A DNA stretch of 33,283 nucleotides. Source: a virus. A model generated the notes under the pieces. The model made no database searches. It was not told the origin of the DNA and saw only the letters and a list, made by a program, of their open reading frames with translations. Location of the stretch: the IMG/VR virus record IMGVR_UViG_3300033987_000190, positions 1 to 33,283 of that record, one strand, 5' to 3'. Within the stretch, counting starts at the first letter, position 1, and each line of letters opens with the position of its first letter. The translations under genes were made by a program, and so were the position numbers. Shown piece by piece: positions 1,778-32,139 of the stretch.

Positions 1778-3031
1778 TTATTCCCTCCACGGGCCTGTAA
1801 TGTCTATCATCACTTGCCCTTGCCTCGGCCCAGACGTCTCATAACTAAATTTCCATCTTGAACATAGATATTTTAGCGCAAGCAAGGGCCGTACTTGTAC
1901 TGCGTCAGTGACAACGCTCAAATCGGAATACGGTCTATCGTGCAGAGGTGCAAACAACCCGGGAAGATTACCTCTAAAGACGCATCCTTGCCCACTTTGT
2001 TCAGGGTCTCTATTGTCGACGAAAGGTTCAACAAGAATAGGTTGTGAGAGAATTACAGACTTTGTTGTAGGACAGGGAAACGTCGTCGGCCAACTCCCTA
2101 ACGCTCTTGGATATGAATCTTTAGAATAAGTTGGTGCAGTTATATGTAAATCAACACTAGATATGCAGCACCGTTTCCCTGGATAATAACCATAAATATC
2201 CCTCGCAATATAACTTCCGGACGCCGGTCTTGTCACTTGCGTAATGGTCAATAACCCGCCGCAGTAATTGTTGTCTGTCGATGAACCATGACCTGCAACG
2301 ACACAACCATAGACGTCTGCGGTGTTGAATGGGATGATGTCCCCGAAAGCGTAAATATATTGCTTGCTTGAGGAATCGGCGTTGACCCACACGTAGAAGA
2401 GCCGACTATCCGCAATCACAGCCCACGGGCGCGCTGTTGTGACGTCCCAACCCTTTAGCCACCAAACCCACTGATCATCGGTCGCCGACCAGGGGAACGG
2501 GCCGGAGCGTGTATCAATATCCGTCACCATCTCATAACCCTTGGCTCCAGCGCGGAGGGGCCAGGCGTTGGTGTCGTCCACGTAAAGGTAGAACCCGGTG
2601 GCTTCGGGGGCCGTGCTGCGGAAGGCCGCCCGGAGTTGATCGCCGCTCACAAAGCTCCGTTCCCACCCGGCCGGCGCGGCCTTGGCCTCCAGGGTCGTGC
2701 CGGTGGCCGGCGTGGCTGGCGTCACGCCGTCAGGAAGCTCGAAGGTGAAGGTGTCGTTGGTCACCGTGTCGATGCGGAAGTCTCCGTTGTATTCCTGCTG
2801 ATCGCACCCGCTGATGCGCACCACCTGATGTTCCACAAACCCGTGCCCGGCGCTGATCGTGACCGTGACGGTGCTGCCGTCCCGGGTGATGGAGTCCACG
2901 GGGGTTGCTCCGAAGCCCGTCACGAGACAGGCGTGAAGGATTTCCAGGATGGAACCGGCCGCCCCGGTGAGTGTCGGTGCTCCCTGGTGTTGGTAGGTGA
3001 ACCACTTTACCGCCGTAGATCTCGCCGCCAT
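1778..3031 (-). CDS. Tail protein upstream of fibre (417 aa)
   Basis: The start MAARSTAVKWFTYQHQGAPT is preceded by GGAGGAG. The first 120 residues include a beta domain (STVTVTISAGHGFVEHQVVR, then TNDTFTFELP) like those repeated in phage tail and baseplate proteins. The C-terminal two thirds are aromatic-rich, with YLYVDDTNAWPLRAGAKGYE and DDQWVWWLKGWD. The first ~600 bases of the gene are GC-rich while the later half is AT-richer, so a composition boundary falls inside the gene near 2400. Its TAA precedes the fibre ATG by 2 bases. A distal tail or fibre-attachment role is inferred from context. Confidence 0.7.
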   Translation of the reverse strand: MAARSTAVKWFTYQHQGAPTLTGAAGSILEILHACLVTGFGATPVDSITRDGSTVTVTISAGHGFVEHQVVRISGCDQQEYNGDFRIDTVTNDTFTFELPDGVTPATPATGTTLEAKAAPAGWERSFVSGDQLRAAFRSTAPEATGFYLYVDDTNAWPLRAGAKGYEMVTDIDTRSGPFPWSATDDQWVWWLKGWDVTTARPWAVIADSRLFYVWVNADSSSKQYIYAFGDIIPFNTADVYGCVVAGHGSSTDNNYCGGLLTITQVTRPASGSYIARDIYGYYPGKRCCISSVDLHITAPTYSKDSYPRALGSWPTTFPCPTTKSVILSQPILVEPFVDNRDPEQSGQGCVFRGNLPGLFAPLHDRPYSDLSVVTDAVQVRPLLALKYLCSRWKFSYETSGPRQGQVMIDITGPWRE

Positions 3032-3043
3032 ATTTCTCCTCCA

Positions 3044-6000
3044 CTAAGGCGTGTTCACGTCGCCGCGCACGCAAATGCGGAAACGGTCTTCCCCGGCCGA
3101 GGCGTCCCCCTGCAGGATGGTCCTCACCACCCACACGGGATAATTGGCCGCGATGGTGTTGATGCGAAGAACGTTCCCGGTGGCCCACCCCGTGCCCCAG
3201 CCGCCGGCGCGGATGATGAAGTAGGGGACGCCGGTTTCGGGATTGATGGGGCTGAAGTCCGTGTTGATGTCTCCCGTGGCGATCTGCCCCGTATACTCCC
3301 CCACCAGCTTGAAAGTGGCGGAGCCGGTGAAGATGATGGCCCAGCGTTCCTGGATGCACCCCTTGTTGGTGACCAGGATGGGATAAAGCGTGTTGTTGTA
3401 TTTGCCGGTGGTGTCGGAACCTATGCGCGTGTCGGACCATTCCCCGGTCCAGGTGGCCTGGGAAAACACGACGCCCACCCGCGCCCACATGTCGCCGATC
3501 ACCAGAGCGCTGGAAACGTAGCTCCCCGCCGGATACGCATGGGATAGCGCCCGGGTGAGCTGGAGCGTGCCGTTGATCTGCAGATCGGACACCAGCGCCA
3601 TGTCCTCGATGCGGTCCTCCAGTGTCAGCGGAGCTGCCAGGCCCGCAACGTCCAGCAATGTGACGGTGCCGGCGTCCAGGTCCACCGTGTACCGGCTTGT
3701 GTCCACCAGGGCGCCATTGGCGTCATACAGGCGCGCATAGCTCAGTCGCACCCGACCCGTGTCGATCACCTGGTTGTTGGTCGGATTGGCGATTTGGGTG
3801 GTCTGCGTGTGGTGGACGACGATGACGTCCCCCACCCGGAAGATGGGCACCTGGCCGTCCATCGGGAGGCGAACCGGGTCCAGGCCCAGGATATCCGCGG
3901 ATAGGGGCATGTAGACGTACACCACGACGTTATACCGGGCCGTGTTGGGGATGACCTTCCGGGGCATCCAGACGGTCCCGTCCGGCAAAACGTCCTCCTC
4001 TCGATACCACCCGGCCTTCTCTTCCTCGGTCAGACTGGATGCCTGCCGATATTGGCCGAACCGCACGCCCACGACGCCGGTCTGCACGTCGATCCCGCCG
4101 TCCACCCAATCTCCCGCGACATTGCCATCCAGGTCGGCGGATGCCGTGAGCAGTTCCCCGTCCTCGGCCATCACCGCAAGCGTCAGGCTAGCAGGCCGGC
4201 ACGGAGCGGATGCCGTGCGCCAGGTGAGCTCGGTGGTCAGCCTTGGCGACACTTCCAGGAGCAGGGAGTCCAAGGCAAAGGAAAACGTCCCGGTAGCCCA
4301 GTAGGTCAGTGTGACGTCTCCCGTCTGGTAGTTGATGGACCCTGCCGGCGTGCCCACGCCGGTCCCGGGATCGGGATCCATGTGAATTTCGCCTTCGATG
4401 TCGACGAATGTATGTCCGGATAGGCGGAATTGGACCGTGCCCGGCACCACGGCCGCGTTGCTCGCGGGCTGGAGTCGGACCAACATGGACTGGCCTGCCA
4501 CATTCTCATCGTAGGATTCTAGCTGTGTCCCCTGGGCGATGTAGTCCACGTTGATGTCCACGGTCCCGTCGATGGAGGTGGTGGCCGAGGTGGTGGTGTC
4601 CCAATCGTAGCCCTTAAATTCAGGGCCACACGAAGTGCAGTACATCTGCAGACCCGTCTGGGGATCATTCCCGCACGGGTTGGCCCGGCACACCGTGTCA
4701 TAGACCGCATGCTGGGCGTAGTATTGGATTTCCGTGGGCACCGTCACGGTCTTGTTCACCAGGTCCAGAGTCCCGAACGGGAGGTCGCCCGCAGAGCTTG
4801 CCGTCATGCCGATCCGGAGCCGCGTATTGCTTTCCGCCACCACTTCCAGCGTGGACCCGTTGGGCATCCGGACCGGACCTTGCCCCGTGGCCACCGTCTC
4901 GCCCTGGCAGATCACCTTGAATCCCGGGGTGTCCACATTGGCCGTAAAGGCCCGGACCGAATACTTCACCCGCACGGACCCGGCGTCCGGCTGTGCCTGC
5001 AAGATCACCGTGGCTTCGTCGTTAACGACCGGCACGCCCTGAAAATCCTCTTGCACCGGCTCGAAATAGCCCTGGTAGGACAAGAGGGGAGACGTGTCGG
5101 GATCGGGGAGTTCCGTGGGACGAAACACCACCAGGCCGTCCCCGTAGAGCACGTAGCCCGTGCCGTCCCCGGTCAGGTTCCCGGCGCCGTCGTCCGTGAT
5201 GGTCTTCGGCGATCCGCCGGCATCCCAGGTGATGGAAACGGAACTCGGCGCGATGGGCGGATGCGCCACGGTGTGCCGATACTGAGGCAGATCCACGTCG
5301 ATGGAGGATCCCTGGATGTACTTGTCCCCCGTCCCCCAGCCCAGCATGATGGCCGTGCCGGTGTCTGGCAAATCCTTCAGCGTGATGGCAACGGACCCGG
5401 TGGTGTAGTTGACCGTGCCCGAGCCTTCACCGGTGAGGCTTCCATCGCCGGCTTCATCGAAGATCACGTACCACTTGTCCCGGGAGCGGTAGCTGACTTC
5501 CAGGGTCCCCGCCGCCGGTTTTGGGGTGAGCTGGAAGACGTAATTATATTGGCGGTTGGCCTCTTCGATGGCGTAGCTGTAAGTGTAGCTCACCTGGTTG
5601 ACGGTGGCCGAGCGGGCCCCGCCGGAAACCGTCACCGTGCGCACGGACCCGGCCGGAATGTCCAGCATGGCGGACTCGCTCTGGGTGCTGGGGACCAACG
5701 GCGTTTTGTACCGCTCCACCCGCAGCGTCATGTCCCCAAAGGACGCCGCTTGCGCCAGAGGCGATACGCCGTAATAGCTCACGGCTTCCACCACGTTGGT
5801 GCGGTGGACCTTCGTGGGAGGATCGTAACTCGTGTAGCGGGACACAGAGCCGGCCTCGAAATCGTAGCGTAGCGGGTCGCTGATCTCCAGCGTGAGTTCC
5901 AGCCGCTCAAAGGCGCCTTTGTCGTCGTAGTAGGTGGCGACCCGGCTCTCCACGGACAACACCCGCACGAACTGCTCGTGGGTGTCGTCCTTGAGGACGT

Positions 6001-6854: not shown

Positions 6855-9800
6855 TTAGGACGCCGCCCCGGCCGTGCTCAGGCCGCTCACAACGGCTGCC
6901 GCCAGCTGTTCCGGGGATAGCGAGGCGCCGGAGACGCGCCGGGCGATGGCCTCCACATATCCGGCAATCTCCGCAAGCAGACGCTCCATGTTCCGAGTGT
7001 CCGCAAAGGCTTGTGAGGGCGCCGGTGCGGAAGGAACAGGTGCGGCTGCGGCTGTAGGCACGGCCGCCGTCTGAGCGCCGGTTTGAGGGGCACGGGCCTT
7101 CTTGACGGCGTCCACCACGGAATACTTGGACAGATCAATGAATCCGCCGAATTCCGAAACGATCTGCTGAACCTGCTTGGAGATGAGTTCGTTGATCCCC
7201 GTGGCGTCGAATTGCATTTGCAGCCGGTCCAACTCGGCCACGGCATCGGAGACTTCCTTGGCCGTCTGTCGGAACCGCTCCAGGGAGTAGTTCTTGAACG
7301 CCCAACCTCCGCTGGCAAGAATCTTGTAGCTTTCCTGGATCACGGCGTCGGAAAGGCGTTCCATCTCCCGCTTTCCGACGTCCGATAGAGCCTCCCACCC
7401 CCTCACCACGTCGGCCATGCGGGTGACATGGGTGACCTCTTTGGACTTTTCCGCTTCTTCCTGGGCGGCCTTCCCGGCATCCTTCACGGCCTCGGCCGCC
7501 TGCTTGGCCGATGCGGAAACGTCCTGCATGCCGTCCGCGATCTTTTGGGTGGCCTGCTCGCCCACCTGGCCCGTCTTTTCCAGTTCCTCACGAAGCCCAT
7601 AGACGGCCCGCTGGGATTCCAAGGTCTCGGCGGTGGCCACCGCCTGGGCCTTTCCGTGGGCTTGCGCCGCCTTCATGGCGGCCCTGGCGTAGGCCTCGAA
7701 CGCCTGGGCCACCTCACCGGCCGTAGCTGTCCCGGAATCCCGGATAAGCTCGAAATCACGCCGGGCCTGCTCCGCCAAACGGTCCAGTTCCGCCGCACTT
7801 TCCACGCCCAAACGCTGCATGGCCGCCGCCACGGGGGACAGCATGCCGGCCGCCTGTGCCGCCGCCCGGTCCAACCGCTTCATGGCCTCCGTCACCTGAT
7901 CCACGGATAACACGCCGGACCGGCCCAGTTCTTCCACCTGTGCCCGCAACTGGTCAATGGCCGTCGTGCTGGAAATCTGGCCCATGAGAGCGTCCAGGGC
8001 CGCGGCCACCATTTCCGACGACGCCTGGGAACTGCTGGCCAGCGACGAAAAGAGCGACAGCGCTTCTTTCTCCGCGCTGGTCATACCGGAGCGGAACGTT
8101 TCGACGTCCACACCCAGCTTGACGAGGGCGGCGGACACGCCGGCCTCCAACACCCATGCGTAGTCCTGTGCCGTTTGCCCGGCCGACTCGAAGGCGATCT
8201 CGGCCTTCGATTGGAAGTCTGCCAAGTCTTGGGCCGACAGCTTCTGCAGGGCTGCGGCCAGGCGTTGATCCACGGTGGCCGCGGCCTCTTCGCCGAGCAT
8301 TCGCACCTTGTCGAGGCCAAGCACCAGGGCTTCGATCTGGGTGTAGTCCCGCTCGGCCAGGGCGACCTGCAGAGCCTTGTCGATCTCTTCCGCCGCCGCC
8401 TTACCGCTCGCTACGACGGATTCCAACTGGGCCTTGACGTCCGCGGCTTGGGACTGCACCGCGCCGCCGGCCTGGGCCATGACCTGCTGCATGGCCGCCG
8501 TGGTGTCGGCCACCATGCGCCTGGCGGCCTCCGCCGTGGACAGGGCCGCGGTGTCAGCGGATCGGGACGCCTTCCAGCTTCCGTCCTCCACCTCATTGTA
8601 CATCTGATCGAAGATGGCGGACATCTGCCGGAGCCGTTCTTCGTGACGCCGCGTGGCTTCGTCGATGGTGTCGTCGGTGAAGACGGCCTTCAGGGTTTCC
8701 CAGGCATAGCGCAGATACTCGAAGCCCTTCACGGTGGTTTCCACCATGAAGACTCCCGCCTTCCGGGCGATCTCGAACTCATCGGACAGCCACTTCCCGA
8801 TGTCCCACCCCACCAGGAAGGCGCTGATGACGGCGAAAGCGGAATTCAGACGGCCCAGGGCACCGATGGCCTGTCCGATGGGGAGATTCATGGAGGCGAT
8901 GGCCTCGCCGGCATCCATGCCCAAGGAGATTCCCGCCAGCCTGGCAGCCAAAAAGGCCGCGCGCAGCGCTCCTGCGGCAGCCGCCACGGTGGCCAACGTG
9001 GTGGCCAGCTGGGTGATCAAGGGAAACCGCTCGGCGAAATCCGCTATGGCCCGGGAGGCGTCCGACAGCCCTCCGGCGATCTTGTTCACCGCCGGGAGAA
9101 AAGTGGACCCGATGTTGATGGCGATGGCCTCAACAGAATTCGCGAGCAGCTGGATTTGTGCCTCTGTGGTCTGCAGACGCCGCTTGAATTCATCCTGCAT
9201 GGCGCCGGCGGTGCGCTGCCGGTCGGAGACGAGCCCCAGGGCCCGTTCGTACTGGCCCAGGCTCGCGATGAGAGCGCTGATGTCGTCCTGGTATTCCAGC
9301 CCGAAGAGCTTCACCAGGACCTCGGACCGTGCCATCGGCTCGATCCGCTGCAGCGTGCGGAGGAATTCCACCAGGGCCTGTTGGGGGTTCTCGCGGATGG
9401 ACGCAGCGAGTTGTTCGGCGTCGATGCCGATCCGCTGCAGCGCCTCCTGGAAGTCCTTGCCGGCGACCTTGGCCGTCTGGAGCTTGGCAAGCAGGGCGTT
9501 GATGCCGGTGGCGGCCACCTCCGGGGTCTTGCCCAGGCTCAGTATGGCGGCGCCGAGAGCCGCCGCCTGGTCCGCCGCAAGCCCGAACTGCCGGCTCTGT
9601 CCTCCGATGCGGGACATGACCTCCACGATGTCCCGCTCGGTGGTGGCCATGTTGTTTCCGAGGGTGTTCACCGCGTCCCCGACGGACTGCACCTGCTCCA
9701 GAGTGAGGTTGAAGACGTTCATGAGCCTGGCGATGGCCTGGCCGGCCTCGTCGGCGCCCATGTTGAACGCCGTGGCCATCTGGGCAGCCAGCTCGGTGAA

Positions 9801-10490
9801 TTCACGGAGGTGTTGGATGGGGATGCCGAGCTGCCCCCCGGCCGCGGCCAGCCGTGCCAGCTCGTCGGCGGACATGGGGATGGTGCGCGTGAGATCCTTG
9901 ATTTCGTCCCCGAGCCGCTGGATCTGCTGGTCCGTTGCGCCGGTGACCTTGGCCACTTCGGCCATCGCGGATTCGAAATCCATCGCCTGCCGGATGGCCA
10001 AGGTGAGCCCACCTCCGGCGGCGGCCAGGCCGGCCAATTCCGCCTTGGCCGCCTGGAGAGCTCCGGCAAAATCGTTGGTCTGGCGCTTGAGATCGGCGAT
10101 GCGGCGTTGGGTGGCGACGGCGGCCTGGGCGATTTCCTGCTGGCTGAGCACCCCGGACTTTTTGAGCGAATCAAAAGCGGCCTCCACTTCGCGAATCTGC
10201 CGTTGAATCTCCGTATGCGGCACCAGACCCAGGATGTCCCGACTCTTGGCGACATTGACCAGATCCCGGTAGGAGACCAGCAATTCGTGGGTTTCTTTGT
10301 CGACATAGTCCGCCGCCTGCCCCGTGGCGATGAAATCCTGGGCGAGCTTGGAAAACGTCCTTATATCTTCGGGCGTTTTTCCGAGAGATTTCAGCAACTC
10401 ACCGAATTCCTCGTTGAGCCGGTCAACGTTGCTGGTTGCCTCTCGGGTATCGGCGGAGATAGTGATCTGCAGCTTGTAAGGATTCGCCAT
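6855..10490 (-). CDS. Tail tape measure protein
   Basis: 1211 aa, the longest gene in the window. An N-terminal coiled-coil region is followed by a TP901-type core (AMDFESAMAEVAKVTGATDQ and DLTRTIPMSADELARLAAAG, about residues 165-215). Hydrophobic segments lie near residues 490-560 (LITQLATTLATVAAAAGALR and FAVISAFLVGWDIGKWL). Long Ala/Gln/Glu-rich helices and an Ala-Pro linker near the C-terminus complete it. This protein sets tail length and in related phages passes through the cell envelope during DNA entry. The start at 10490 has AGGA upstream; that ribosome site lies just past the T-rich flank of a strong hairpin (10516-10572). Confidence 0.93.
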   Translation of the reverse strand: MANPYKLQITISADTREATSNVDRLNEEFGELLKSLGKTPEDIRTFSKLAQDFIATGQAADYVDKETHELLVSYRDLVNVAKSRDILGLVPHTEIQRQIREVEAAFDSLKKSGVLSQQEIAQAAVATQRRIADLKRQTNDFAGALQAAKAELAGLAAAGGGLTLAIRQAMDFESAMAEVAKVTGATDQQIQRLGDEIKDLTRTIPMSADELARLAAAGGQLGIPIQHLREFTELAAQMATAFNMGADEAGQAIARLMNVFNLTLEQVQSVGDAVNTLGNNMATTERDIVEVMSRIGGQSRQFGLAADQAAALGAAILSLGKTPEVAATGINALLAKLQTAKVAGKDFQEALQRIGIDAEQLAASIRENPQQALVEFLRTLQRIEPMARSEVLVKLFGLEYQDDISALIASLGQYERALGLVSDRQRTAGAMQDEFKRRLQTTEAQIQLLANSVEAIAINIGSTFLPAVNKIAGGLSDASRAIADFAERFPLITQLATTLATVAAAAGALRAAFLAARLAGISLGMDAGEAIASMNLPIGQAIGALGRLNSAFAVISAFLVGWDIGKWLSDEFEIARKAGVFMVETTVKGFEYLRYAWETLKAVFTDDTIDEATRRHEERLRQMSAIFDQMYNEVEDGSWKASRSADTAALSTAEAARRMVADTTAAMQQVMAQAGGAVQSQAADVKAQLESVVASGKAAAEEIDKALQVALAERDYTQIEALVLGLDKVRMLGEEAAATVDQRLAAALQKLSAQDLADFQSKAEIAFESAGQTAQDYAWVLEAGVSAALVKLGVDVETFRSGMTSAEKEALSLFSSLASSSQASSEMVAAALDALMGQISSTTAIDQLRAQVEELGRSGVLSVDQVTEAMKRLDRAAAQAAGMLSPVAAAMQRLGVESAAELDRLAEQARRDFELIRDSGTATAGEVAQAFEAYARAAMKAAQAHGKAQAVATAETLESQRAVYGLREELEKTGQVGEQATQKIADGMQDVSASAKQAAEAVKDAGKAAQEEAEKSKEVTHVTRMADVVRGWEALSDVGKREMERLSDAVIQESYKILASGGWAFKNYSLERFRQTAKEVSDAVAELDRLQMQFDATGINELISKQVQQIVSEFGGFIDLSKYSVVDAVKKARAPQTGAQTAAVPTAAAAPVPSAPAPSQAFADTRNMERLLAEIAGYVEAIARRVSGASLSPEQLAAAVVSGLSTAGAAS

Positions 10491-10515
10491 CGCCTGATCC
10501 TATATAAAAAGAAAG

Positions 10516-10572
10516 GGGGTGCAACCGGGTGACCACAGGACTCGCGGCCCTCTCGAATCCCGGCGGCACCCC
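10516..10572 (-). terminator. Hairpin/attenuator between tail tube and tape measure genes
   Basis: GGGGTGC (10516-10522) pairs with GCACCCC (10566-10572), and inside it CCGGG (10524-10528) pairs with CCCGG, separated by a small internal loop. On the leftward transcript the stem is followed by CTTTCTTTTT (10506-10515), so it looks like an intrinsic terminator or attenuator. It would reduce read-through from the abundant tail tube gene into the tape measure gene. It is about 57 nt, too short for a normal tRNA despite a TCGAATCC-like stretch. Confidence 0.6.
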
Positions 10573-10593
10573 GGAGTCGGACGGAGGCCCAAA

Positions 10594-11325
10594 TTACTCA
10601 ACCAGCGTCACACGGAAGTATTGGCTCGTTCCGGCCGGCTTGCTGGTGTCCTTCAGCGCCTTGCCCTCGACCTCCAGGCCGGCGTAGTCATCTCCGATGA
10701 GGCTGATGGTCTTGGCCGCACCGAAGCGGGCCCGCCACACGTCCACGATCACCGGCTTTCCGGATCGCGCCTCGTTCAGCCCCTCGAACACCAGCTCGTA
10801 GGTGCCCTGGGCTCCGTCCAGGGCCTGCACCACGTCCTGGGCCCCGTAGTCGTAGTCGACGTGCAGGGTGGCGCCATCCGCGATGGACCCGGTGCTGAGA
10901 ATGAAGATCCCGCCCGGGCGCACTTCGTAGTCCGTGCCGGCCGTGTAGGTGGTGGTGTCCGTCTCGTCCTGGACCACCACGTTGCTGATCCCTGTGTGTG
11001 CCAGCCGAACCAGCGCGTCATGTTTCGCCGTCACCACTTCACTCGTCGCGGACCCGGCCTCCACGGCCTCGGTGGTGCCGTAGAGGGACATCGCAAGGTT
11101 TGTCGCGTTCAGGTCGTGGAGCGTCATGGCCAGCGTCACGCCGGTGATCCGGCGCACCTCGTTGATGACGCCGCCTCCCGGAGACCGGTAGTCCCGCAGC
11201 TCCTTCGTCTCCTCCTCCGTTCCGATGTCGAGCTTGGAGACGTTTCCGATCTCGAGGAGCCCGCCGGATCCGGAAAGGTCCCGCATGTAGATCTTGCCGC
11301 TGCCGATGTAGGAATAGTCCGCCAT
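10594..11325 (-). CDS. Major tail tube protein
   Basis: 243 aa, starting MADYSYIGSGKIYMRDLSGS with AGGAGG upstream. The order 'G.GKIY.RD..G..GLLEIGNVSKLDIGTEEE.KEL.DY.SPGGG' followed by ITGVTLAMTLHDL matches tail tube proteins of siphophages (lambda gpV-like and those in B3/D3112-type transposable phages). An Ig-like module is possible in the middle. The protein polymerises as hexameric rings around the tape measure. It precedes the tape measure as usual, but I see no tail-assembly chaperone gene between them. Confidence 0.82.
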   Translation of the reverse strand: MADYSYIGSGKIYMRDLSGSGGLLEIGNVSKLDIGTEEETKELRDYRSPGGGVINEVRRITGVTLAMTLHDLNATNLAMSLYGTTEAVEAGSATSEVVTAKHDALVRLAHTGISNVVVQDETDTTTYTAGTDYEVRPGGIFILSTGSIADGATLHVDYDYGAQDVVQALDGAQGTYELVFEGLNEARSGKPVIVDVWRARFGAAKTISLIGDDYAGLEVEGKALKDTSKPAGTSQYFRVTLVE

Positions 11326-18522: not shown

Positions 18523-20025
18523 ATGCCGGACGAACGAAAGCTCCTCACCAAGACGCTTTTCACCCGCGCCAGGCTCTGGGATTTCCAGACCTGCCTGGGG
18601 CTCCTCCCCAACCCGGATCCGGTGCTGCGAAAGAAGGGCCTGGCCATACAGGCCTATGAGAACATCCTGGTGGACGGGCGCGTGGTAGCCTGCATGGAAA
18701 GCCGAAAGGCCGGCGTCCTTTCCTGGGCATGGGAACTGGAAGGCGGCGGGTCCGACAAGCACCGAGGGATCCTGAGCGACCACCTGGAAAGAATCGACAT
18801 TCACAACGTGCTGAACCAGGTCCTGGACGCCGTCTTCTTCGGCTACAAGCCGCTGGAAGTGATTTGGGAGCGCGTGGGCGGCGGGTGGATCCTTCCCGCG
18901 GAAGTCCGGGGGCTGCCGCCCCAATGGTTCGCCTTTGATCCGGAAAACCGCCTCCGGTTCCTCTCCGCATCGTCCGCCCTGACCGGGGAGGAGGTGCCGG
19001 AGCGCAAGGTGCTCGTGGCCGCCCGGGACGCCTCCTACGCCAACCCCTACGGCCGGCCCGTGGCGGCTCTCTGTTTCTGGCCGGTCAGTTTCAAGCGGGG
19101 CGGGCTGAAGTTCTGGGTGTCCTTCGTGGAGCGCTTCGGCATGCCGCATCTCCTGGGCAAGGTCCCGCCCGGCACGCACGAAGACAAGATGAACGCCCTG
19201 GCGGACCAGCTGGAAAAGATGGTCCAGGATGCCATCGCCGTCATCGAAGACGATCAGAGCATCGACACCCTGGACGTGGGGACCCGGTCCGCATCCAGCA
19301 ATCTCTACCGGGATCTCAGCCGCCACATGAACGACGAGATCGCCGTGGCCGTGCTGGGCCAGACCCTCACCACCGAAGTGCGCGAAGGCTCGCGCGCCGC
19401 CGCCCAGGTCCACATGGCCGTGCGCGACGACATCGCCGCCAAGGACCGGCGCATGGTGGCCGGCGTCATGAACCGGCTCATCCGCTGGATCTGGGATCTC
19501 AACTTCACCGGCGATCCGCCGGTCTGGCGCTGGGTGGAAGAAGACGATCCCAGGAAGGATTGGGCCGAGCGGGACGATTTGTTGGCCAAGCAGGTCCGCT
19601 TCACCAAGGTCTACTTCCAGCGCCGCTACGGCCTCCAGGAAGACGAATTCCAGGTGATGGATACCCAGGGTCTCCCCCAGGCGCCGGAAGGCGTTCTGGG
19701 GCCATCCAGAGGCTTTTCCTGGGCGTTTCGTTCCGGGGCCGCGCCGGCGATGGCGACGCCTCCGGCTCAGGACCCCGGCCAGGCGGCCATAGACGGACTG
19801 GCCGATGCCTACGCCGGCCGCGCGGCCGAGGCGTTTCAAACATCTTTGGGCCCGGTGCTGCAGGCCGTGCAGGAAGCCCAAAGCTACGAAGACCTGATGG
19901 AACGCCTCTACGAGCTCCACAGGGAGATGAACACCGCGGACTTCCAGGAGCTGGTGCGACAAGCCCTCTTCGCCGCGGATCTCTGGGGATACCTGCGCGC
20001 CAAGGATGAGGCGGGTGGGGCATGA
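18523..20025 (+). CDS. Portal protein (Mu gp29-like, DUF935)
   Basis: 500 aa. Diagnostic stretches are LAIQAYENILVDGRVVACME, the central YKPLEVIWERVGG, LVAARDASYANPYGRPVAAL, FVERFGMPHLLGKVPPGTHE and the conserved AIAVLGQTLTT-type segment (here AVAVLGQTLTTEVREGSRAA). It forms the dodecameric ring at the head vertex that binds terminase and the tail. Its 3' end overlaps the MuF gene by 4 bases (ATGA). Confidence 0.93.
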   Translation: MPDERKLLTKTLFTRARLWDFQTCLGLLPNPDPVLRKKGLAIQAYENILVDGRVVACMESRKAGVLSWAWELEGGGSDKHRGILSDHLERIDIHNVLNQVLDAVFFGYKPLEVIWERVGGGWILPAEVRGLPPQWFAFDPENRLRFLSASSALTGEEVPERKVLVAARDASYANPYGRPVAALCFWPVSFKRGGLKFWVSFVERFGMPHLLGKVPPGTHEDKMNALADQLEKMVQDAIAVIEDDQSIDTLDVGTRSASSNLYRDLSRHMNDEIAVAVLGQTLTTEVREGSRAAAQVHMAVRDDIAAKDRRMVAGVMNRLIRWIWDLNFTGDPPVWRWVEEDDPRKDWAERDDLLAKQVRFTKVYFQRRYGLQEDEFQVMDTQGLPQAPEGVLGPSRGFSWAFRSGAAPAMATPPAQDPGQAAIDGLADAYAGRAAEAFQTSLGPVLQAVQEAQSYEDLMERLYELHREMNTADFQELVRQALFAADLWGYLRAKDEAGGA

Positions 20026-21491
20026 TCGAACTCAAGCCGCTCCCGTTCGATGAAGCGATCCGGTTTTTCCGGGACAAGGGCCTGGCCGTCTCGCCGCTCT
20101 CCTGGCGGGACGTCTGGGCGGACGCCAATGTGCGCGCCTTCACCGTGGCCCGCGTGGCCGCAATGGATGTGCTGGAAGACATTCGTCGGGAAGTGGACCG
20201 GGCCGTGCGATCCGGCGTCACCCTGCAGGACTTCAAGGCTTCGCTCGCCGAAACCCTGGCCCGCAAGGGCTGGTGGACTCCTCCCTTAGAAAAGCCCGAA
20301 GAGATTCTGCCCGACGGCATGGTCCGAAAGCGCCTAACGCCCTGGCGGCTGGACACCATCTTCCGCACCAACGTGCAGAGCGCCTACAACACGGGCCGCT
20401 ACCGGCAGATGATCGAAAACGCCCCCCGCCGGCCCTGGTGGCTCTACGACGCCGTGAACGACGCCCGCACGCGCCCCGCCCACGCCGCGATGGACGGCAA
20501 GGTCTTCCGCTTCGATCATCCCATCTGGGACAAATGGTATCCGCCCAACGGCTTCAACTGCCGGTGCACGGTCCGGGCCCTCTCGGATCGGGACATGGAG
20601 CGCCGCGGCCTCCGGGAAAGCACCCGTCCGCCCGCGGACAGACCGGATGAAGGATTCGACTACAACCCGGGCCGCGTGAAGTGGCAGCCGGATTTCAACC
20701 GCTACGCGCCCCGGGCCCGGCATCTGCTCCAATCCGATCTCTCGGACGGCTCCGCCTCCGGACCTTTACCCCTTCGGAACCGACCCGACATCGCCGCCGT
20801 CCTGACGCAGAAGCTGGGGCACATGCTCCCCAACGGCGTGCGGGACGTCCGCTTTGCAGACGCAAAATTCCTCATGGCCACGGACAGCCGCGGCGGCTTT
20901 GTGGTCTCCACACGCCCTAAGAACCTGACCAAAGTGGGAGGGCCGGCGGCTTATCGGGCCGACCGCATGCTGGAAAGCGGCCTCCGGGCGCTCGGTAGGC
21001 GTCCGCTCACGTTCGACGAAGAATACGCGCTCGAAAGCTTCTGGCACGAATGCCTGCACAACCTCCAGGTGGAAGCGCGGGACCGGACCGCTTTCTACGC
21101 CAAGCGCTATCCGGACAGCCGGGTGCTCATGGAAACCGTCACCCAGTGGACGGCCAGGCGCACCTACCACCAGATGCTGGACGCCCTGGGCGGCTACCGG
21201 CCGTCGCTGCAGGATGACATCATCCGGCGCGGCTATGCCTACCGGCACTGGGTGAGAAACCTGGAATCTCTGCGGGTGCGGGTGGGGATCGGTGAATCGC
21301 AGCTCAAGGCCGCCTGTGCCGAGGTCATGGGAAGCGTTCCGCGGGACCAATACGAAGACGCCCTCGTCGAACGGCTTACGGCGCGTGGAGCGCTCCAGCC
21401 CGACCGCGAGTTCGTATTCCGTCTCGGCCTGCAATGCCTGCGCTCGGATCCGAAGACCTTTGCCGAGACCGTGCTGGCTTTCTTGGAGTGA
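20022..21491 (+). CDS. MuF head morphogenesis protein fused to zincin-like domain
   Basis: 489 aa. Residues 1-235 are a normal MuF (gp30) domain: DTIFRTNVQSAYNTGRYRQM (111-130), ARTRPAHAAMDGKVF and PPNGFNCRCTVRAL (174-187) with its Cys-x-Cys pair. Residues 250-489 are an added domain, with FDEEYALESFWHECLHNLQ (331-349): HECLH (342-346) fits the HExxH zinc-protease motif, and Glu371 (METVTQW) could be the third ligand. MuF proteins are minor head proteins injected or placed at the portal, and the family is known to carry variable C-terminal toxin or enzyme domains. The last part is helical (QYEDALVERL, FRLGLQCLRSD). Protease activity is inferred. Confidence 0.85.
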   Translation: MIELKPLPFDEAIRFFRDKGLAVSPLSWRDVWADANVRAFTVARVAAMDVLEDIRREVDRAVRSGVTLQDFKASLAETLARKGWWTPPLEKPEEILPDGMVRKRLTPWRLDTIFRTNVQSAYNTGRYRQMIENAPRRPWWLYDAVNDARTRPAHAAMDGKVFRFDHPIWDKWYPPNGFNCRCTVRALSDRDMERRGLRESTRPPADRPDEGFDYNPGRVKWQPDFNRYAPRARHLLQSDLSDGSASGPLPLRNRPDIAAVLTQKLGHMLPNGVRDVRFADAKFLMATDSRGGFVVSTRPKNLTKVGGPAAYRADRMLESGLRALGRRPLTFDEEYALESFWHECLHNLQVEARDRTAFYAKRYPDSRVLMETVTQWTARRTYHQMLDALGGYRPSLQDDIIRRGYAYRHWVRNLESLRVRVGIGESQLKAACAEVMGSVPRDQYEDALVERLTARGALQPDREFVFRLGLQCLRSDPKTFAETVLAFLE

Positions 21492-21501
21492 CGACCGCTC
21501 T

Positions 21502-21762
21502 TTAGGCCTCGGCCAAAAGATCCGGATTCAGGTAGGCCAGTTCCAGCGTGAAGCGGTATCCCGGGTCCCGGATGGAAGCGAGATATTGAGCGGCACGGTC
21601 TTCCATGCCGCGGTGGAGGTAGAGCCTGGCGATTTCCCCCAGCTGGGTGTCGGCGCCACGGGCCATCGTCCGCTTGTATCGGTCCAGATCTTCCCGGGAC
21701 CGGATGTTGAAGACCAGCGCCAGCTCTTCCGGGGTGGGTTCGTGATCGAAGATGGTTTCCAC
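21502..21762 (-). CDS. Small helical protein convergent with MuF gene (86 aa)
   Basis: Starts METIFDHEPTPEELALVFNI, with later segments GEIARLYLHRGMEDRAAQYL and DPGYRFTLELAYLNPDLLAE, predicted mostly helical and acidic. It is encoded against the head operon and ends 10 bases from the MuF gene end. Its upstream 93 bases of coding sequence are copied at 22936-23028. I do not recognise the family. A partner or immunity role for the zincin-like MuF domain is a speculation based only on adjacency. Confidence 0.6.
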   Translation of the reverse strand: METIFDHEPTPEELALVFNIRSREDLDRYKRTMARGADTQLGEIARLYLHRGMEDRAAQYLASIRDPGYRFTLELAYLNPDLLAEA

Positions 21763-22129
21763 TTCCGCTCTCCCGTTTTGTTTCAGGATAACGAAAGGAT
21801 AACGCCGTGAGCGTTCGCATTCAAATAAAAAAGAACCAGGACACCGTGAGCCGGCTGCTGCAGGATCTCACGGGCCGTCTCCAGGATCTCACGCCGGTCA
21901 TGCGCGACATCGGAGAGATCCTGGTGGAGCACATCCAGGAAAACTTCCGCGAAGGCACCGCCCCGGACGGAACCCGCTGGAAGCCGTCCGTGCGGGCCAT
22001 GAAGGAAGGCGGCAAGACCCTCATCGACACGGGCGTGCTTCGGAATTCCTTCCACGCCCGGCCGGACCGCCGAAGCGTCCGGATCGGCACCCCCGACGTG
22101 CGGGCGGCCGTGCACCAGTTCGGCGCCCC
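21670..22129 (+). repeat. 460-bp direct duplication, copy 1
   Basis: Bases 21670-22129 recur at 22936-23395, offset exactly 1266, with identical protein translations on both strands throughout. The copy spans the first 31 codons of the small - strand gene, the spacer, and the first ~108 codons of gpG. Confidence 0.93.
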
Positions 22130-22286
22130 CCTTCCTCGTATCCCTTCATCGCCATACGGCCGAGGCGTAGCGGGCCGCAGGGGATTTCGATTCAGCCCGG
22201 AAACATCTGGAACAGGCCAGGGCCATGGCCATGTTCCTGGAAATGTCGCCCGTCGTAATTGGGAAGCTGAGTCACGCATTGGATGA
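21807..22286 (+). pseudogene. Truncated gpG-like virion morphogenesis gene (copy 1)
   Basis: GTG start with AAAGGA upstream. The first ~107 residues (MSVRIQIKKNQDTVSRLLQD to AAVHQFGAP) match the intact copy at 23073-23609, then the reading frame enters unrelated DNA and continues for 52 residues with no similarity to the gpG C-terminus (RIPSSPYGRGVAGRRGFRFS...). The conserved C-terminal PARPFLPDPD part is lost, so this copy is probably non-functional, or makes a truncated competitor. Confidence 0.85.
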
Positions 22287-22347
22287 GCTGAAGAAACTCA
22301 AGTCTCCCGGGAAACGTTCGGTTCGGCCGGCGGCGATGCCGGCTTAG
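22130..22347 (+). pseudogene. 3' fragment of unknown helical gene, interrupted by TAG
   Basis: One frame of the inserted DNA reads as a plausible helical protein end: RAAGDFDSARKHLEQARAMA (from 22171) through GKLSHALDELKKLKSPGKRS to a TAG at 22345-22347. The same frame upstream (PFLVSLHRHTAEA) is separated by an in-frame TAG at 22168-22170, where a Gln codon CAG would fit a TPR-like helix. It looks like the broken 3' end of a gene brought in with the cargo. No start codon with a ribosome site is seen. Confidence 0.45.
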
Positions 22348-22357
22348 GAGGTGTCCG

Positions 22358-22735
22358 ATGTGTCCATTGAAGCGTTGTCGTTTTCTTGAGGCGGCGAAAG
22401 CCATCATTGACGAGAGGCGTTGCTTGGAGTGGGGGTATGTCCCCTCTCGGGATCTCATGGGCTATTACTGGAAGGGGGAATGGGTCGGAGGCGATACCGT
22501 GGACGATGCGATCCATTTTATCGCCGACCAGATTGATGCCTCCCAGTCCCCGAAGTCCATGCCGTCCTGTTGCCGGGAGCAGGCCCTTGTTGACACCATC
22601 GAAAGCGAGGGGTTCGATTGTCCGAACCTGCACGCCCTCGTGCTTGCGACGCCCGTGCGGTTTTCGGGGCGGGTGCTTCGACCGGCGGACGGGAAGGACG
22701 AGCGGAGCGGAGGCGAAGGACTGAAGCGATCCTGA
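22358..22735 (+). CDS. Unknown cargo protein (125 aa)
   Basis: ATG 22358 has a perfect TTAGGAGGT upstream, right after the end of the preceding fragment. The protein starts MCPLKRCRFLEAAKAIIDER and contains WGYVPSRDLMGYYWKGEWVG and DAIHFIADQIDASQSPKSMP; cysteines occur at residues 2, 7, 22, 71, 72 and 87. No membrane segment. The C-terminal 30 residues are basic and low-complexity (RPADGKDERSGGEGLKRS), reading into a GC-rich repeat-like tract. I do not recognise it; it is the only complete gene of the 806-bp insert. Confidence 0.6.
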   Translation: MCPLKRCRFLEAAKAIIDERRCLEWGYVPSRDLMGYYWKGEWVGGDTVDDAIHFIADQIDASQSPKSMPSCCREQALVDTIESEGFDCPNLHALVLATPVRFSGRVLRPADGKDERSGGEGLKRS

Positions 22736-22741
22736 CCGGAG

Positions 22742-22885
22742 GGCCGGCGCTGGGCGGCTAACGGAGACAAACGGGAAGCCGGAGCCAAGGCGACCGAGCG
22801 GAGGCACCCAGCCGGGCAAGCCCTACGCGCGTTAAGTCCCGGCTGGGTGCCGGAGCGCTTTGTCGGAGTCCGCCCAGCGCCGGCC
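22742..22885 (+). repeat. 144-nt nested inverted repeat downstream of cargo gene
   Basis: Outer arms GGCCGGCGCTGGGCGG (22742-22757) and CCGCCCAGCGCCGGCC (22870-22885) pair perfectly over 16 bp. Inside, GACAAA (22766-22771) faces TTTGTC (22859-22864), and GGCACCCAGCCGGG (22803-22816) pairs with CCCGGCTGGGTGCC (22838-22851) over 14 bp around a 21-nt loop. Together these form one long rod hairpin or cruciform just after the cargo gene. There is no T tract, so it is not a simple terminator. Confidence 0.85.
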
Positions 22886-22935
22886 TGGAGGGAAGGGTTA
22901 GCGGAAGTCCGGAGCCGGAGCGGAGCGGGCGTCGG

Positions 22936-23028
22936 CCGCTTGTATCGGTCCAGATCTTCCCGGGACCGGATGTTGAAGACCAGCGCCAGCTCTTCCGGGG
23001 TGGGTTCGTGATCGAAGATGGTTTCCAC
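22936..23028 (-). pseudogene. 5' fragment of the 86-aa gene (duplicated)
   Basis: The first 31 codons (METIFDHEPTPEELALVFNI to DRYKR) repeat the gene at 21502-21762, then the frame runs into cargo DNA and continues open as low-complexity sequence. It retains the same upstream region, so it may still be transcribed, giving antisense RNA toward the cargo. Confidence 0.8.
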
Positions 23029-23395
23029 TTCCGCTCTCCCGTTTTGTTTCAGGATAACGAAAGGATAACGCCGTGAGCGTTCGCATTCAAATAAAAAAGA
23101 ACCAGGACACCGTGAGCCGGCTGCTGCAGGATCTCACGGGCCGTCTCCAGGATCTCACGCCGGTCATGCGCGACATCGGAGAGATCCTGGTGGAGCACAT
23201 CCAGGAAAACTTCCGCGAAGGCACCGCCCCGGACGGAACCCGCTGGAAGCCGTCCGTGCGGGCCATGAAGGAAGGCGGCAAGACCCTCATCGACACGGGC
23301 GTGCTTCGGAATTCCTTCCACGCCCGGCCGGACCGCCGAAGCGTCCGGATCGGCACCCCCGACGTGCGGGCGGCCGTGCACCAGTTCGGCGCCCC
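22936..23395 (+). repeat. 460-bp direct duplication, copy 2
   Basis: Second copy of 21670-22129. Identity begins at CCGCTTGTATCGGTCC (22936) and ends at GCCCC (23391-23395), after which the intact gpG continues. Copy 2 carries the 5' part of the small - strand gene (23028 down to 22936) without its 3' half. Confidence 0.93.
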
Positions 23396-23609
23396 GGCCG
23401 GCTCCTTCGGCACGGTGGAAGTCCTGGTGCGTGAACACTTCCGTCGCCGGCCCGGAAAGGAACCCGTGCGGGTCCGGGCCCACACCCGCCGCCAGCGCCT
23501 CCCCTGGGGCGACATCCCCGCCCGACCCTTCCTCCCCGACCCGGATGCCTTCCCTGGCCGGCTGATGGAGGACATTCGTGAAAGCATCTTGGATTTTCTC
23601 CGCCCCTGA
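23073..23609 (+). CDS. Virion morphogenesis protein gpG (intact copy)
   Basis: 178 aa from GTG 23073 with AAAGGA upstream. The family (Mu gpG / phage tail S) is recognised by the N-terminal coiled helix, EHIQENFREGTAPDGTRWKP, LIDTGVLRNSFHARPDRRSV and the C-terminal PARPFLPDPDAFPG. Mu gpG is an assembly protein acting at the head-tail interface or tail completion. It ends the rightward head operon. The copy is full length compared with the truncated copy upstream. Confidence 0.88.
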   Translation: MSVRIQIKKNQDTVSRLLQDLTGRLQDLTPVMRDIGEILVEHIQENFREGTAPDGTRWKPSVRAMKEGGKTLIDTGVLRNSFHARPDRRSVRIGTPDVRAAVHQFGAPAGSFGTVEVLVREHFRRRPGKEPVRVRAHTRRQRLPWGDIPARPFLPDPDAFPGRLMEDIRESILDFLRP

Positions 23610-23637
23610 TGCTTGCATGGACCATTCGCAAAGGAAA

Positions 23638-24167: not shown

Positions 24168-24754
24168 GGACGCGCCCCTCCCATCTTTCCGGTCCAGGCT
24201 TTCAGCATCTCGTACACCTTCCGGCGCTCCTCCTCCGTGGCCGGCCGTTCCGGCTCGGCTGTCCCCTCCGCCACTCTTTCCTCTTTCCTCTCCACTCTTT
24301 CCTCTTCTTTTCCCGCTCTTTCCTCTTCCGCCACGTAGGCTCGTCCCATCCGCTGCCGCTCCACGGCCCGCTCCTCGCTCGCCGCCCGGCCGGCCGCCAT
24401 CTCCCAGGCCACGTGGCGGAGGTAGTTGTGGTTCTTGAGCCCCTTCGGCCGGCGGGCCAGCACGGCGTCCAGGGCCGCCGCCCACACGGTGGGAGGGCAG
24501 GGGCGGAGCTCGCCGCCCTCCCACCGCACGGTGCCGGACTCCACCATGTCCTGGAGCTGCTGCAGTAGCCGCAGGGCGCGCGTCCAGGTGAGCCCCCGGC
24601 CTCCCTGGCGGAACAGCCCCAGGTACGGCAGCACACGGCTCTGCACCACGCCCGGGAGGCGGGTCACCACGTCCAGGGCCTGGCGCGCCGCCGCGTCGTT
24701 TTCCCACGCCTCGGCGCTCGCTATCGCGCCGCAACTCGGGCAAATCAGCCTCAT
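24164..24754 (-). CDS. Zinc-ribbon protein with charged repeat tail (196 aa)
   Basis: N-terminus MRLICPSCGAIASAEAWEND has a CxxC and a following helix; only one CxxC pair is visible. The middle is helical (PGVVQSRVLPYLGLFRQGGR, WTRALRLLQQLQDMVESGTV), and residues 145-170 are Glu/Arg/Lys repeats (EERAGKEEERVERKEERVAE) encoded by a homopurine tract also found at 26599-26630. It overlaps its neighbour's stop (ATGA). Such proteins recur in Mu-like phage early regions, without known function. Confidence 0.75.
   Translation of the reverse strand: MRLICPSCGAIASAEAWENDAAARQALDVVTRLPGVVQSRVLPYLGLFRQGGRGLTWTRALRLLQQLQDMVESGTVRWEGGELRPCPPTVWAAALDAVLARRPKGLKNHNYLRHVAWEMAAGRAASEERAVERQRMGRAYVAEEERAGKEEERVERKEERVAEGTAEPERPATEEERRKVYEMLKAWTGKMGGARP
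24274..24305 (-). repeat. 32-bp homopurine direct repeat, copy 1
   Basis: On the + strand an all-pyrimidine-plus-one-A tract of 32 bases starting CTCTTTCCTCTTTCCTCTCC; the same 32 bases recur at 26599-26630. Here it encodes the charged E/R/K tail of the protein at 24164-24754. Confidence 0.85.
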
Positions 24755-26140: not shown

Positions 26141-26636
26141 CACCGACTCCCGCCAGGTCGTACCCATAACGCACACGTTCCACGCGCTCCGTGCCCACGG
26201 CCTCCAACTCGGCGTCCGGCCAGGTTTCCAGCTTCGACCAGTCCACGCTCTTGGCGATCTTGACCGCGTCCAGGCGCCCCAGGGCTTCCAGGCGCTCCAA
26301 CACGCCCCGGGCCCGCTTCACGCGGATCTCGACGCTTCGGATCAATGTGCCGTTCCGGAGCCGCACCCAGCATTCCGGCTGAGATGCGTCGAATAGATCC
26401 CCTTCGTGCGCCTTCGCCGTCTTCTTGATCTCCTTGTCCACCCGATCCAGCTCGGCCTTCCATTTCTGGATGGGCTCCTCGTATTCGGCCCGCACCGCCG
26501 CGAGCCTCCGTTTCATCTCATCTTCCAGGTCGCGAAGCTCCACTGTGAGGCGCCCCGCCTCGGCCAGCAGCTCGTCCAAGATCTTTTCCGGCGACACCCT
26601 CTTTCCTCTTTCCTCTCCACTCTTTCCTCTCTTCAC
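26091..26636 (-). CDS. gam: Gam-like host nuclease inhibitor
   Basis: 181 aa. GTG 26636 overlaps the upstream stop (GTGA); a second GTG at 26597 after the homopurine repeat is an alternative. The helical pair LLAEAGRLTVELRDLEDEMK and YEEPIQKWKAELDRVDKEIK, then HEGDLF, VRLRNGTLIRSVEIRVKRAR and VDWSKLETWPDAELEAVGTE, match Mu Gam, a Ku-like dimer that binds DNA ends and shields them from exonucleases. It protects linear phage DNA during transposition. Confidence 0.88.
   Translation of the reverse strand: MKRGKSGEERGKRVSPEKILDELLAEAGRLTVELRDLEDEMKRRLAAVRAEYEEPIQKWKAELDRVDKEIKKTAKAHEGDLFDASQPECWVRLRNGTLIRSVEIRVKRARGVLERLEALGRLDAVKIAKSVDWSKLETWPDAELEAVGTERVERVRYGYDLAGVGDGKAKQGGRQAAQAAG
26599..26630 (-). 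repeat. 32-bp homopurine direct repeat, copy 2
   Basis: Identical to 24274-24305. Here it spans the start of gam: it encodes residues 3-13 of the longer form (KSGEERGK) and provides purine-rich sequence just before the alternative GTG at 26597. Confidence 0.85.
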
Positions 26637-29859: not shown

Positions 29860-32139
29860 TCACTTCACCCCGTACAGCTCCGCCAGCTGATCGTAGCGGT
29901 CCGCGAAGTTCTCCCGGAATTCCGCTGTTTTCTCGTAGTAGCTCATGAACGCCTCATCCTCATCGCTGAGCCGCATCTTGTGGATGTGCTTCGCCCGCCA
30001 GCACCACTCGTAGCGCTCCGGTTCGCTCCCGAACCACTCCGGACGCTCCGGCTTCTCCGGATCATCACCACAGGCCGAAGCCTCCTCGTCCAGCTGCTCG
30101 TAGACCACCCGAAGCCGATCCATCTCCTCCGGATCCGGAATCTCGGCCGGCGCTTCTCGCTTTCCTTTCAGGACCGCCGCCATGCCCCACGGCGCATCCA
30201 CCACATCGCGGATATCCTCCGGGATCACGCCCAGCTCCCGCAGGTTCTCCACCGTCTGTTTCTTGAGCCGGCGCTGTCGCTCCAGGGCCGCCCGCACCTG
30301 GTCCACCGCCACCTGGTCTCCGAACTCCCGCGCCAGCGGGTGCAGCGCCTCCACAGGATGGATCTCTCCGAGCAGGTGCCCGTCCAGCGTGCAGGCCCAC
30401 ATCCTGTTGAGATCCGAACAGTCGTAGTACACTCGCACCCGATCGGTCGTACCGTGCAGGCAGTCGCCCTCGTAGTCGATCCCCCACATCCGGATCCGGC
30501 ATCGCCGCACGGGACGCTCCTCCCGCCACAGCATGTCCCAGCCCAGCTGGTACTCATCGACGCCGGGGCCTTTCCCGGCCTCGAAGACCTCCCTGGGCGT
30601 CCGGCCGCCCAGCCCCCGGTGGGGTTGGTCCACGTACCACTCGATATACCGGCCGATGAGGTGCGCCGCTTCCCGGATGTCAGGGATCCACCCCTGGAAT
30701 TTGGCTTCGTGCCAGGCCTTGTGCAGCTTCTCGTTACGCTGCATCCAGGCTGGCTTGCGATCGATGGAGGAACCGCAATAGGTGGGCAGGAGCAATTCGA
30801 ACTGATCCGACAGCGTCTGGAAAAATCGTTCGACGATCTTGGCGCGCGCCTCATACGGCCTGGCCGTGAACACCGCGATGCCCAGGCGGGTGTAGAGACC
30901 CGTGCATTCGCCTAGATCCGGATCCGTCTCCGTGAAGACTTTGGCCTTGAAGGCCTTGCCGTTGTCCACGTAGACCGATTTGGGGATCATGCCCAGGGTG
31001 ATGATCCCGCGGCGGAGCGCCGCGTGGATCGCCACCACGTTTTCGGTGGGCATAATCTGCCAGCCGGCCGGGTAGCGGCTCACCCAATCGTAGTAGACGA
31101 TGAGCTTCATCCGGCACGGCTTTCCGGTCTGCGGGTGCAATACGAAGAAGTCCAGAGGATGTCCGTCGGCCACCAGGCAATCGCCCACGTTCAGGATCCA
31201 GTCTGCGCGATCGATGTGTGGAGCGATCTTGTCCTTGTAGGCCTTCTCGCCTTCGCGCATCAGCACGATCACATGCTGATTGTGCCTGGCGTAGTCCCTG
31301 AACCAGCGACGGAAGGTGTCATCGTGCGCCGGCTCCTCGATTCCCCGGCGTTCCAGGATCATGCGGGCGGCCCGGATGGCCGTGGATACGCTCGGCCGGC
31401 TCGGTTGCAGGTAGCATTGGAGGAACGCACGGCGGGCCGGCTCGCTGAGCTTCCGATCCTTCCACTTGGTGCTGCCATGCTTCGCCCAGCCGCCCCGGGT
31501 GTCCGCGATGGCCAGGAAATCGTCATCGGCCTCACGCAAATACTTGTCCAGTCGATAGAGGGTCTTGGCGGCCACCGGTCCCACCACCTCGAAGACTTCG
31601 GGCAGGCGCTGCTTGGAGTTATATGCCGCCAGGAAAGCCTCTGTGGCATCTTTGCGTTTGCCCCACGGGGCGCGCCCGCGCAACTCACGCCAGGCATGCA
31701 CCAGCTTGTACTTGGCTAGCCCGATCTTCCTGGCCCGATCCGGCATGCCGAGTGGCAGAGGCACGTATCGCCGGATTTTGTCTCGGCGCCGCTCCTCCGC
31801 TTCGGCCATCAGCTCCCGAACCGTCTGGTCCATCAAGGGGTTCGGCCGCATGGCCGCCAGAGGCACCTGCTCCACCGCCGGAGGGATCTGATCCGCCGGC
31901 GGCAGCGGTGGAGGGTTCTCCCGGATCTCATCCAGCTTCCGCTGGATCTCCCATCGCTGCACCGCCTCCCGCACATCCCGCGGCAACGACGCCAGGGGAA
32001 AGAGCTTCTGTTTGCCGCCACGGCCCTTGCCCTTCTGGAGGACATGGGGCCAATTCTCCGCGGTCGCTCGCTTTTCTATCGCCTGGCGGGTCACTCCAAG
32101 CGCCTTCGCTATCTCTTTTGCAGCATAAGAGTCCTTCAT
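29860..32139 (-). CDS. Mu-type DDE transposase A
   Basis: 759 aa. Residues 1-65 form a Mu-type HTH (KDSYAAKEIAKALGVTRQAI EKRA, LFPLASLPRDVREAVQRW). An end-binding domain lies at 100-300. The integrase-like catalytic core has Asp325 (LVADGH), Asp392 (VYVDNGK, 67 residues later, exactly as in MuA) and Glu437 (KIVERF). A beta-barrel follows at 540-600 and the C-terminal helical part should contact MuB. It performs DNA strand transfer for integration and replicative transposition. Start ATG overlaps the upstream stop (ATGA). Confidence 0.95.
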   Translation of the reverse strand: MKDSYAAKEIAKALGVTRQAIEKRATAENWPHVLQKGKGRGGKQKLFPLASLPRDVREAVQRWEIQRKLDEIRENPPPLPPADQIPPAVEQVPLAAMRPNPLMDQTVRELMAEAEERRRDKIRRYVPLPLGMPDRARKIGLAKYKLVHAWRELRGRAPWGKRKDATEAFLAAYNSKQRLPEVFEVVGPVAAKTLYRLDKYLREADDDFLAIADTRGGWAKHGSTKWKDRKLSEPARRAFLQCYLQPSRPSVSTAIRAARMILERRGIEEPAHDDTFRRWFRDYARHNQHVIVLMREGEKAYKDKIAPHIDRADWILNVGDCLVADGHPLDFFVLHPQTGKPCRMKLIVYYDWVSRYPAGWQIMPTENVVAIHAALRRGIITLGMIPKSVYVDNGKAFKAKVFTETDPDLGECTGLYTRLGIAVFTARPYEARAKIVERFFQTLSDQFELLLPTYCGSSIDRKPAWMQRNEKLHKAWHEAKFQGWIPDIREAAHLIGRYIEWYVDQPHRGLGGRTPREVFEAGKGPGVDEYQLGWDMLWREERPVRRCRIRMWGIDYEGDCLHGTTDRVRVYYDCSDLNRMWACTLDGHLLGEIHPVEALHPLAREFGDQVAVDQVRAALERQRRLKKQTVENLRELGVIPEDIRDVVDAPWGMAAVLKGKREAPAEIPDPEEMDRLRVVYEQLDEEASACGDDPEKPERPEWFGSEPERYEWCWRAKHIHKMRLSDEDEAFMSYYEKTAEFRENFADRYDQLAELYGVK

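Follow-up and report, generated by a model that had tools for sequence, protein, structure and literature searches.

A 460-bp segment that carries the start of gpG was found to be duplicated exactly in the genome of a Mu-like phage, with 806 bp of unrelated DNA enclosed between the two copies. The arrangement was interpreted as a recent Campbell-type insertion-duplication, an explanation which is held tentatively and at just short of an even chance. The window, that is the whole stretch of DNA analysed, is an entire IMG/VR virus record of 33,283 bp. Two genes, one for a Mu-type transposase (29860-32139, minus strand) and one for a Mu F-like head protein (20022-21491), indicated that the phage is transposable and Mu-like. 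Its closest relatives were the metagenome record L002 (IMGVR_UViG_3300005882_000313) and the prophage L084 in Desulfacinum hydrothermale DSM 13146.

The two copies of the repeat, at 21670-22129 and 22936-23395 on the plus strand, were compared base by base and all 460 of 460 positions were identical at an offset of 1266, which confirmed the exact duplication claimed in a preliminary description of this DNA. A repeat scan gave 99%, the 300-nt reference copy used in it beginning 9 nt outside the exact repeat. Identity beyond the repeat edges was at chance level (21/60 and 15/60), the chance expectation for an exact 460-mer is about 10^-255, and no other long repeat was present in the 33,283-bp window. 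The spacer of 806 bp at 22130-22935 (plus strand), referred to here as the cargo, was likewise unrelated as described earlier; it is unlike the phage and is absent from L002 and L084. Two further repeats were observed apart from this locus. The 32-bp polypyrimidine stretch CTCTTTCCTCTTTCCTCTCCACTCTTTCCTCT occurs in two exact copies 2.3 kb apart (24274-24305 and 26599-26630), which lie within two different minus-strand reading frames of the early region and possibly represent a gene-shuffling site or a repeated charged linker. The related phage contig L016 has an 87-bp exact direct repeat (211-297 and 871-957), with further related copies, partly inverted, elsewhere on the same contig.

The effect of the duplication on the two genes at this locus was analysed. 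The repeat covers the start of an 86-aa minus-strand gene, the intergenic region and approximately the first 108 codons of gpG. The 86-aa gene at copy 1 (21502-21762, minus strand) is intact and is conserved in L002 and L084; its function is unassigned, and this gene, divergent from gpG, gave no Pfam, NCBIfam or convincing PHROG family match. The gpG of copy 1 (21807-22286, plus strand) is truncated, having about 108 phage residues followed by about 51 cargo-encoded residues, and its Phage_tail_S match ends at residue 109. The gpG of copy 2 (23073-23609, plus strand) is intact with 178 aa, matches PF05069 (E=4e-24) and PHROG 26 tail completion/Neck1, and is 90% identical to the gpG of L002. 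Both gpG copies scored above the curated cut-off of 24.3 bits for PF05069 (Phage virion morphogenesis family), at 85.6 and 76.4 bits. The 86-aa gene of copy 2 is represented in the list of open reading frames by a truncated frame (22465-23028, minus strand) with 31 phage residues followed by antisense cargo. Both affected genes thus retain one intact copy and gain one truncated copy, and no gene is lost. As both divergent genes begin within the repeat, the 86-aa gene stays whole at copy 1 and gpG at copy 2, with nothing essential lost. Such intact-plus-truncated gene pairs are the hallmark of insertion-duplication as against a simple insertion into gpG.

The comparison with the relatives revealed the empty state of the locus. 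L002 aligned with the window at 85.7% identity over 8.4 kb up to position 22127 and again at 86.0% identity from 22963 to 23631, and it has a single uninterrupted gpG with the 86-aa gene adjoining and no cargo. L084 also has a single uninterrupted gpG (72% protein identity to the gpG of the window) which the 86-aa gene adjoins. On subtraction of the insert and one repeat, the outer flanks were colinear with L002 on both sides, and likewise with L084. The single 86-aa gene/gpG order that removal of 1266 bp had been predicted to restore is therefore the order in L002 and L084, and these two also supply the related phages lacking the cargo that had been sought. Since both are empty and have a single gpG, the 1,266 bp of duplication plus cargo is derived in the lineage of the window. 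The 129 fetched loci that were compared contained no long, exact duplication at gpG, which points to a private and probably recent event.

The model we prefer starts from a short DNA in which the 460-bp gpG start region was linked to a foreign bacterial segment of 806 bp, which would require an earlier illegitimate join of gpG to bacterial DNA. The joined molecule would circularise, and one crossover between the circle and a normal phage genome, within the common 460 bp, would give the product left flank, repeat, cargo, repeat and right flank. The structure should later collapse back to one repeat through ordinary recombination, and a crossover between the two 460-bp copies would be expected to excise the insert precisely. 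The exact repeat, the empty relatives, the intact gene copies and the helicase relic are observed; we infer the circle, the single crossover, the recency and the reversibility; a single crossover is the simplest model giving repeat-cargo-repeat with intact outer flanks, and at present the best one rather than a proven one. Experiments in E. coli showed that DNA carrying a single homologous segment integrated chiefly by single crossover after circularisation, and the duplications beside the foreign DNA measured 109-950 bp (PMC3240628), a range into which the 460 bp fits. Campbell-type integration as described there is similar in that direct repeats of the target flank the foreign DNA and the interrupted genes keep one intact copy; it differs in that here the searches recovered neither a donor plasmid nor a circle, and neither a vector nor a selectable function is present in the cargo. 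Homology-facilitated illegitimate recombination (HFIR) also captures foreign DNA beside a homologous anchor. However, about 1 kb of recipient DNA is usually lost in HFIR, with 3-10-bp microhomology (PMC3240628), whereas a duplication was formed here and the L002 arrangement is complete at the join, so that classical HFIR fits less well.

Repeats without a single mismatch are compatible with a recent event and also with an artefact. It is possible, though unlikely, that the true phage has one gpG and that the assembler or library passed the 460-bp segment twice, the junctions being supplied by a second molecule, be it a different variant, a small circle of its own or a chimeric fragment. In favour of this, the sequence comes from an IMG/VR virus contig, its closest relatives are without the structure, and an artefact would also give copies identical to the last base. 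A segment of 460 bp exceeds common short-read lengths, and a small circle, tandem array or minority variant could be assembled into the same layout. An artefact would, however, need two independent false junctions, both into the same 460 bp, which was judged less likely than a real molecule. A simple repeat collapse should drop copies and would not add 806 bp of new sequence, and the flanks of the contig are colinear with L002 on both sides.

The cargo was then considered for its content. It contains a 3' gene end without a start (22183-22347, plus strand), recovered by six-frame translation and terminating in ...DFDSARKHLEQARAMAMFLEMSPVVIGKLSHALDELKKLKSPGKRSVRPAAMPA before the stop codon at 22345-22347; its GC by codon position is coding-like (0.62/0.42/0.67), and no relatives were found for it in the collections searched. 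The stop codon is overlapped by the ribosome site AGGAGGT (22346-22352) of a 125-aa open reading frame at 22358-22735 on the plus strand. Residues 82-115 or so of this frame match motifs V-VI of SF2 helicases, and the frame gave a phrog_16 DNA helicase match (E=0.0013). A full-length alignment with helicases was rejected because the gaps were too large, although its N-terminal part was suggestive, and residues ~82-115 alone were trusted; residues 1-77 had no convincing relatives in the collections searched. The helicase fragment (22607-22705, plus strand) matched a helicase gene of contig G022:C15 at 84% identity along 68 bp. Relative to that gene it has lost 21 bp in frame near 22669, at a point flanked by a pair of short, similar repeats, and the missing 21 bp mark the cargo piece as a relic. 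GC by codon position favours coding up to about 22690 and not past there. The neighbours of the G022:C15 helicase gene were recognised by eye as ParA-like, RecJ-like and integrase-like frames, and the neighbourhood looks plasmid- or ICE-like. The cargo had been described as a broken gene end followed by a complete gene with an excellent ribosome site; the gene end, the open frame and the AGGAGGT stand, but the last third of the frame is a helicase relic. Rather than a working cassette, the cargo resembles partly decayed bacterial DNA, and it is most probably a passenger relic and not a useful gene.

The long hairpin earlier noted in the cargo was also recovered. It is a two-part structure at 22742-22885 on the plus strand, with a perfect 16-bp outer stem (arms 22742-22757/22870-22885, GGCCGGCGCTGGGCGG/CCGCCCAGCGCCGGCC) and a perfect 14-bp inner stem (22803-22816/22838-22851), and the folding z-score for 22736-22940 was -4.1. 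The reading as a typical intrinsic terminator was rejected, as no T-run follows the stem. No Rfam family came near threshold for the hairpin, and no viral contig contained its pattern. One open reading frame followed by a long hairpin resembles an integron gene cassette, but the attC reading was rejected on inspection by eye, as the base of the hairpin is without paired RYYYAAC/GTTRRRY boxes. The sole downstream GTTAGCG is no match to GTTRRRY and lies beyond the stem. The locus thus differs from an integron cassette in having no attC core boxes, and 460-bp target repeats are not integron products.

The source of the cargo was searched for in several collections. Elsewhere in the 33,283-bp record there was no second copy of the cargo and no significant DNA match to it. 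No relatives of the cargo protein were found in viral contigs, genome contigs or phages, and plasmids gave only short helicase matches, to the plasmid helicases of Desulfohalobium and Nostocales. The cargo DNA gave only chance-level matches in phages and plasmids. Pieces of the cargo were also compared with genomes belonging to the same classes and phylum as those of Desulfacinum and SURF_67. Besides the G022 helicase match, this comparison gave a weaker helicase match in G030 and 31 matching bp in G457. Two further matches were discounted: 37 bp within an ftsZ-like gene of G021, attributed to chance, and 37 residues in G112, as there was no convincing gene there. No viral contig carried a repeat/cargo junction, and no donor molecule or circle with the repeat and the cargo once was found in the viral, phage, plasmid and genome collections searched. 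The earlier proposal of a homologous single crossover or recent insertion is partly upheld, by the empty relatives L002/L084, the exact repeats and the derived state of the insertion, and weakened by the search for a donor or circle, which found none, and by a cargo that is not a neat cassette.

The make-up of the cargo also bears on a different route, in which two phage copies were bridged illegitimately during replication or break repair, with no circle and no homologous crossover. An end would leave one copy at 22129, copy or join 806 bp of bacterial DNA and re-enter a second copy at 21670, so that the intervening 460 bp would be duplicated. The same anatomy would follow from one episode, and the composite look of the cargo (the end of a gene, an N-terminal segment of unrelated sequence, a helicase piece with a deletion, and a hairpin) is what serial template switching predicts. 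This route was nevertheless rated rather improbable: the composite look is equally explained by decay before capture, just one piece of the cargo has an identifiable relative, and microhomology at the joins can be judged only with the donor sequence. Tandem duplications between sister chromosomes are known in transformation, but these are far larger and proceed via homologous repeats (PMC3784515).

Phages of this group differ in what lies just downstream of gpG, and the gap there constitutes an accessory-gene site, which holds almost nothing in the window (at ~23630). Window position 23630 corresponds to L002 positions 8559 and 10847; in L002 the region downstream of gpG (8560-10877) carries a SIR2-like gene and a P22-type antirepressor gene, and in L084 the corresponding region (2248-4829) carries a C5 methylase, Vsr and an HNH nuclease. 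Mu-like Pseudomonas phages also carry accessory genes at fixed loci (PMC4378225). That the cargo is a selected accessory (moron) cassette at the preferred site of the group would agree with the position of the accessory genes in L002 and L084, directly downstream of gpG, and with the morons and regions of genomic plasticity of Mu-like phages, which are likewise foreign DNA among conserved genes and absent from close relatives (PMC4378225). This was considered most improbable, since the cargo looks decayed, has a deleted helicase fragment, no nameable gene family and is common to no relative. To our knowledge morons have not been associated with long target duplications at their flanks. Consensus scans alone were applied for a moron promoter and terminator, and these gave neither a sigma-70-like promoter nor a T-run downstream of the hairpin. 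The cargo is near the accessory site but between two gpG starts rather than downstream of gpG, and is not counted as an accessory cassette.

The event, read as the insertion-duplication preferred above, is of a familiar kind and its cargo is without evident function, so that its value is that of an example. A broader view, which is very doubtful, is that the Desulfacinum-type Mu-like group regularly samples foreign DNA near gpG by insertion-duplication and that later loss of one of the repeats leaves clean accessory genes such as those that follow gpG in L002 and L084; the duplication would then preserve the essential gene as new DNA is tried. Should the structure be an assembly error, it would call for caution in interpreting duplicated genes in virus contigs. 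If it is real, it would be a snapshot of a phage taking foreign DNA into an essential gene, with the gene kept, before selection or recombination tidies the locus.
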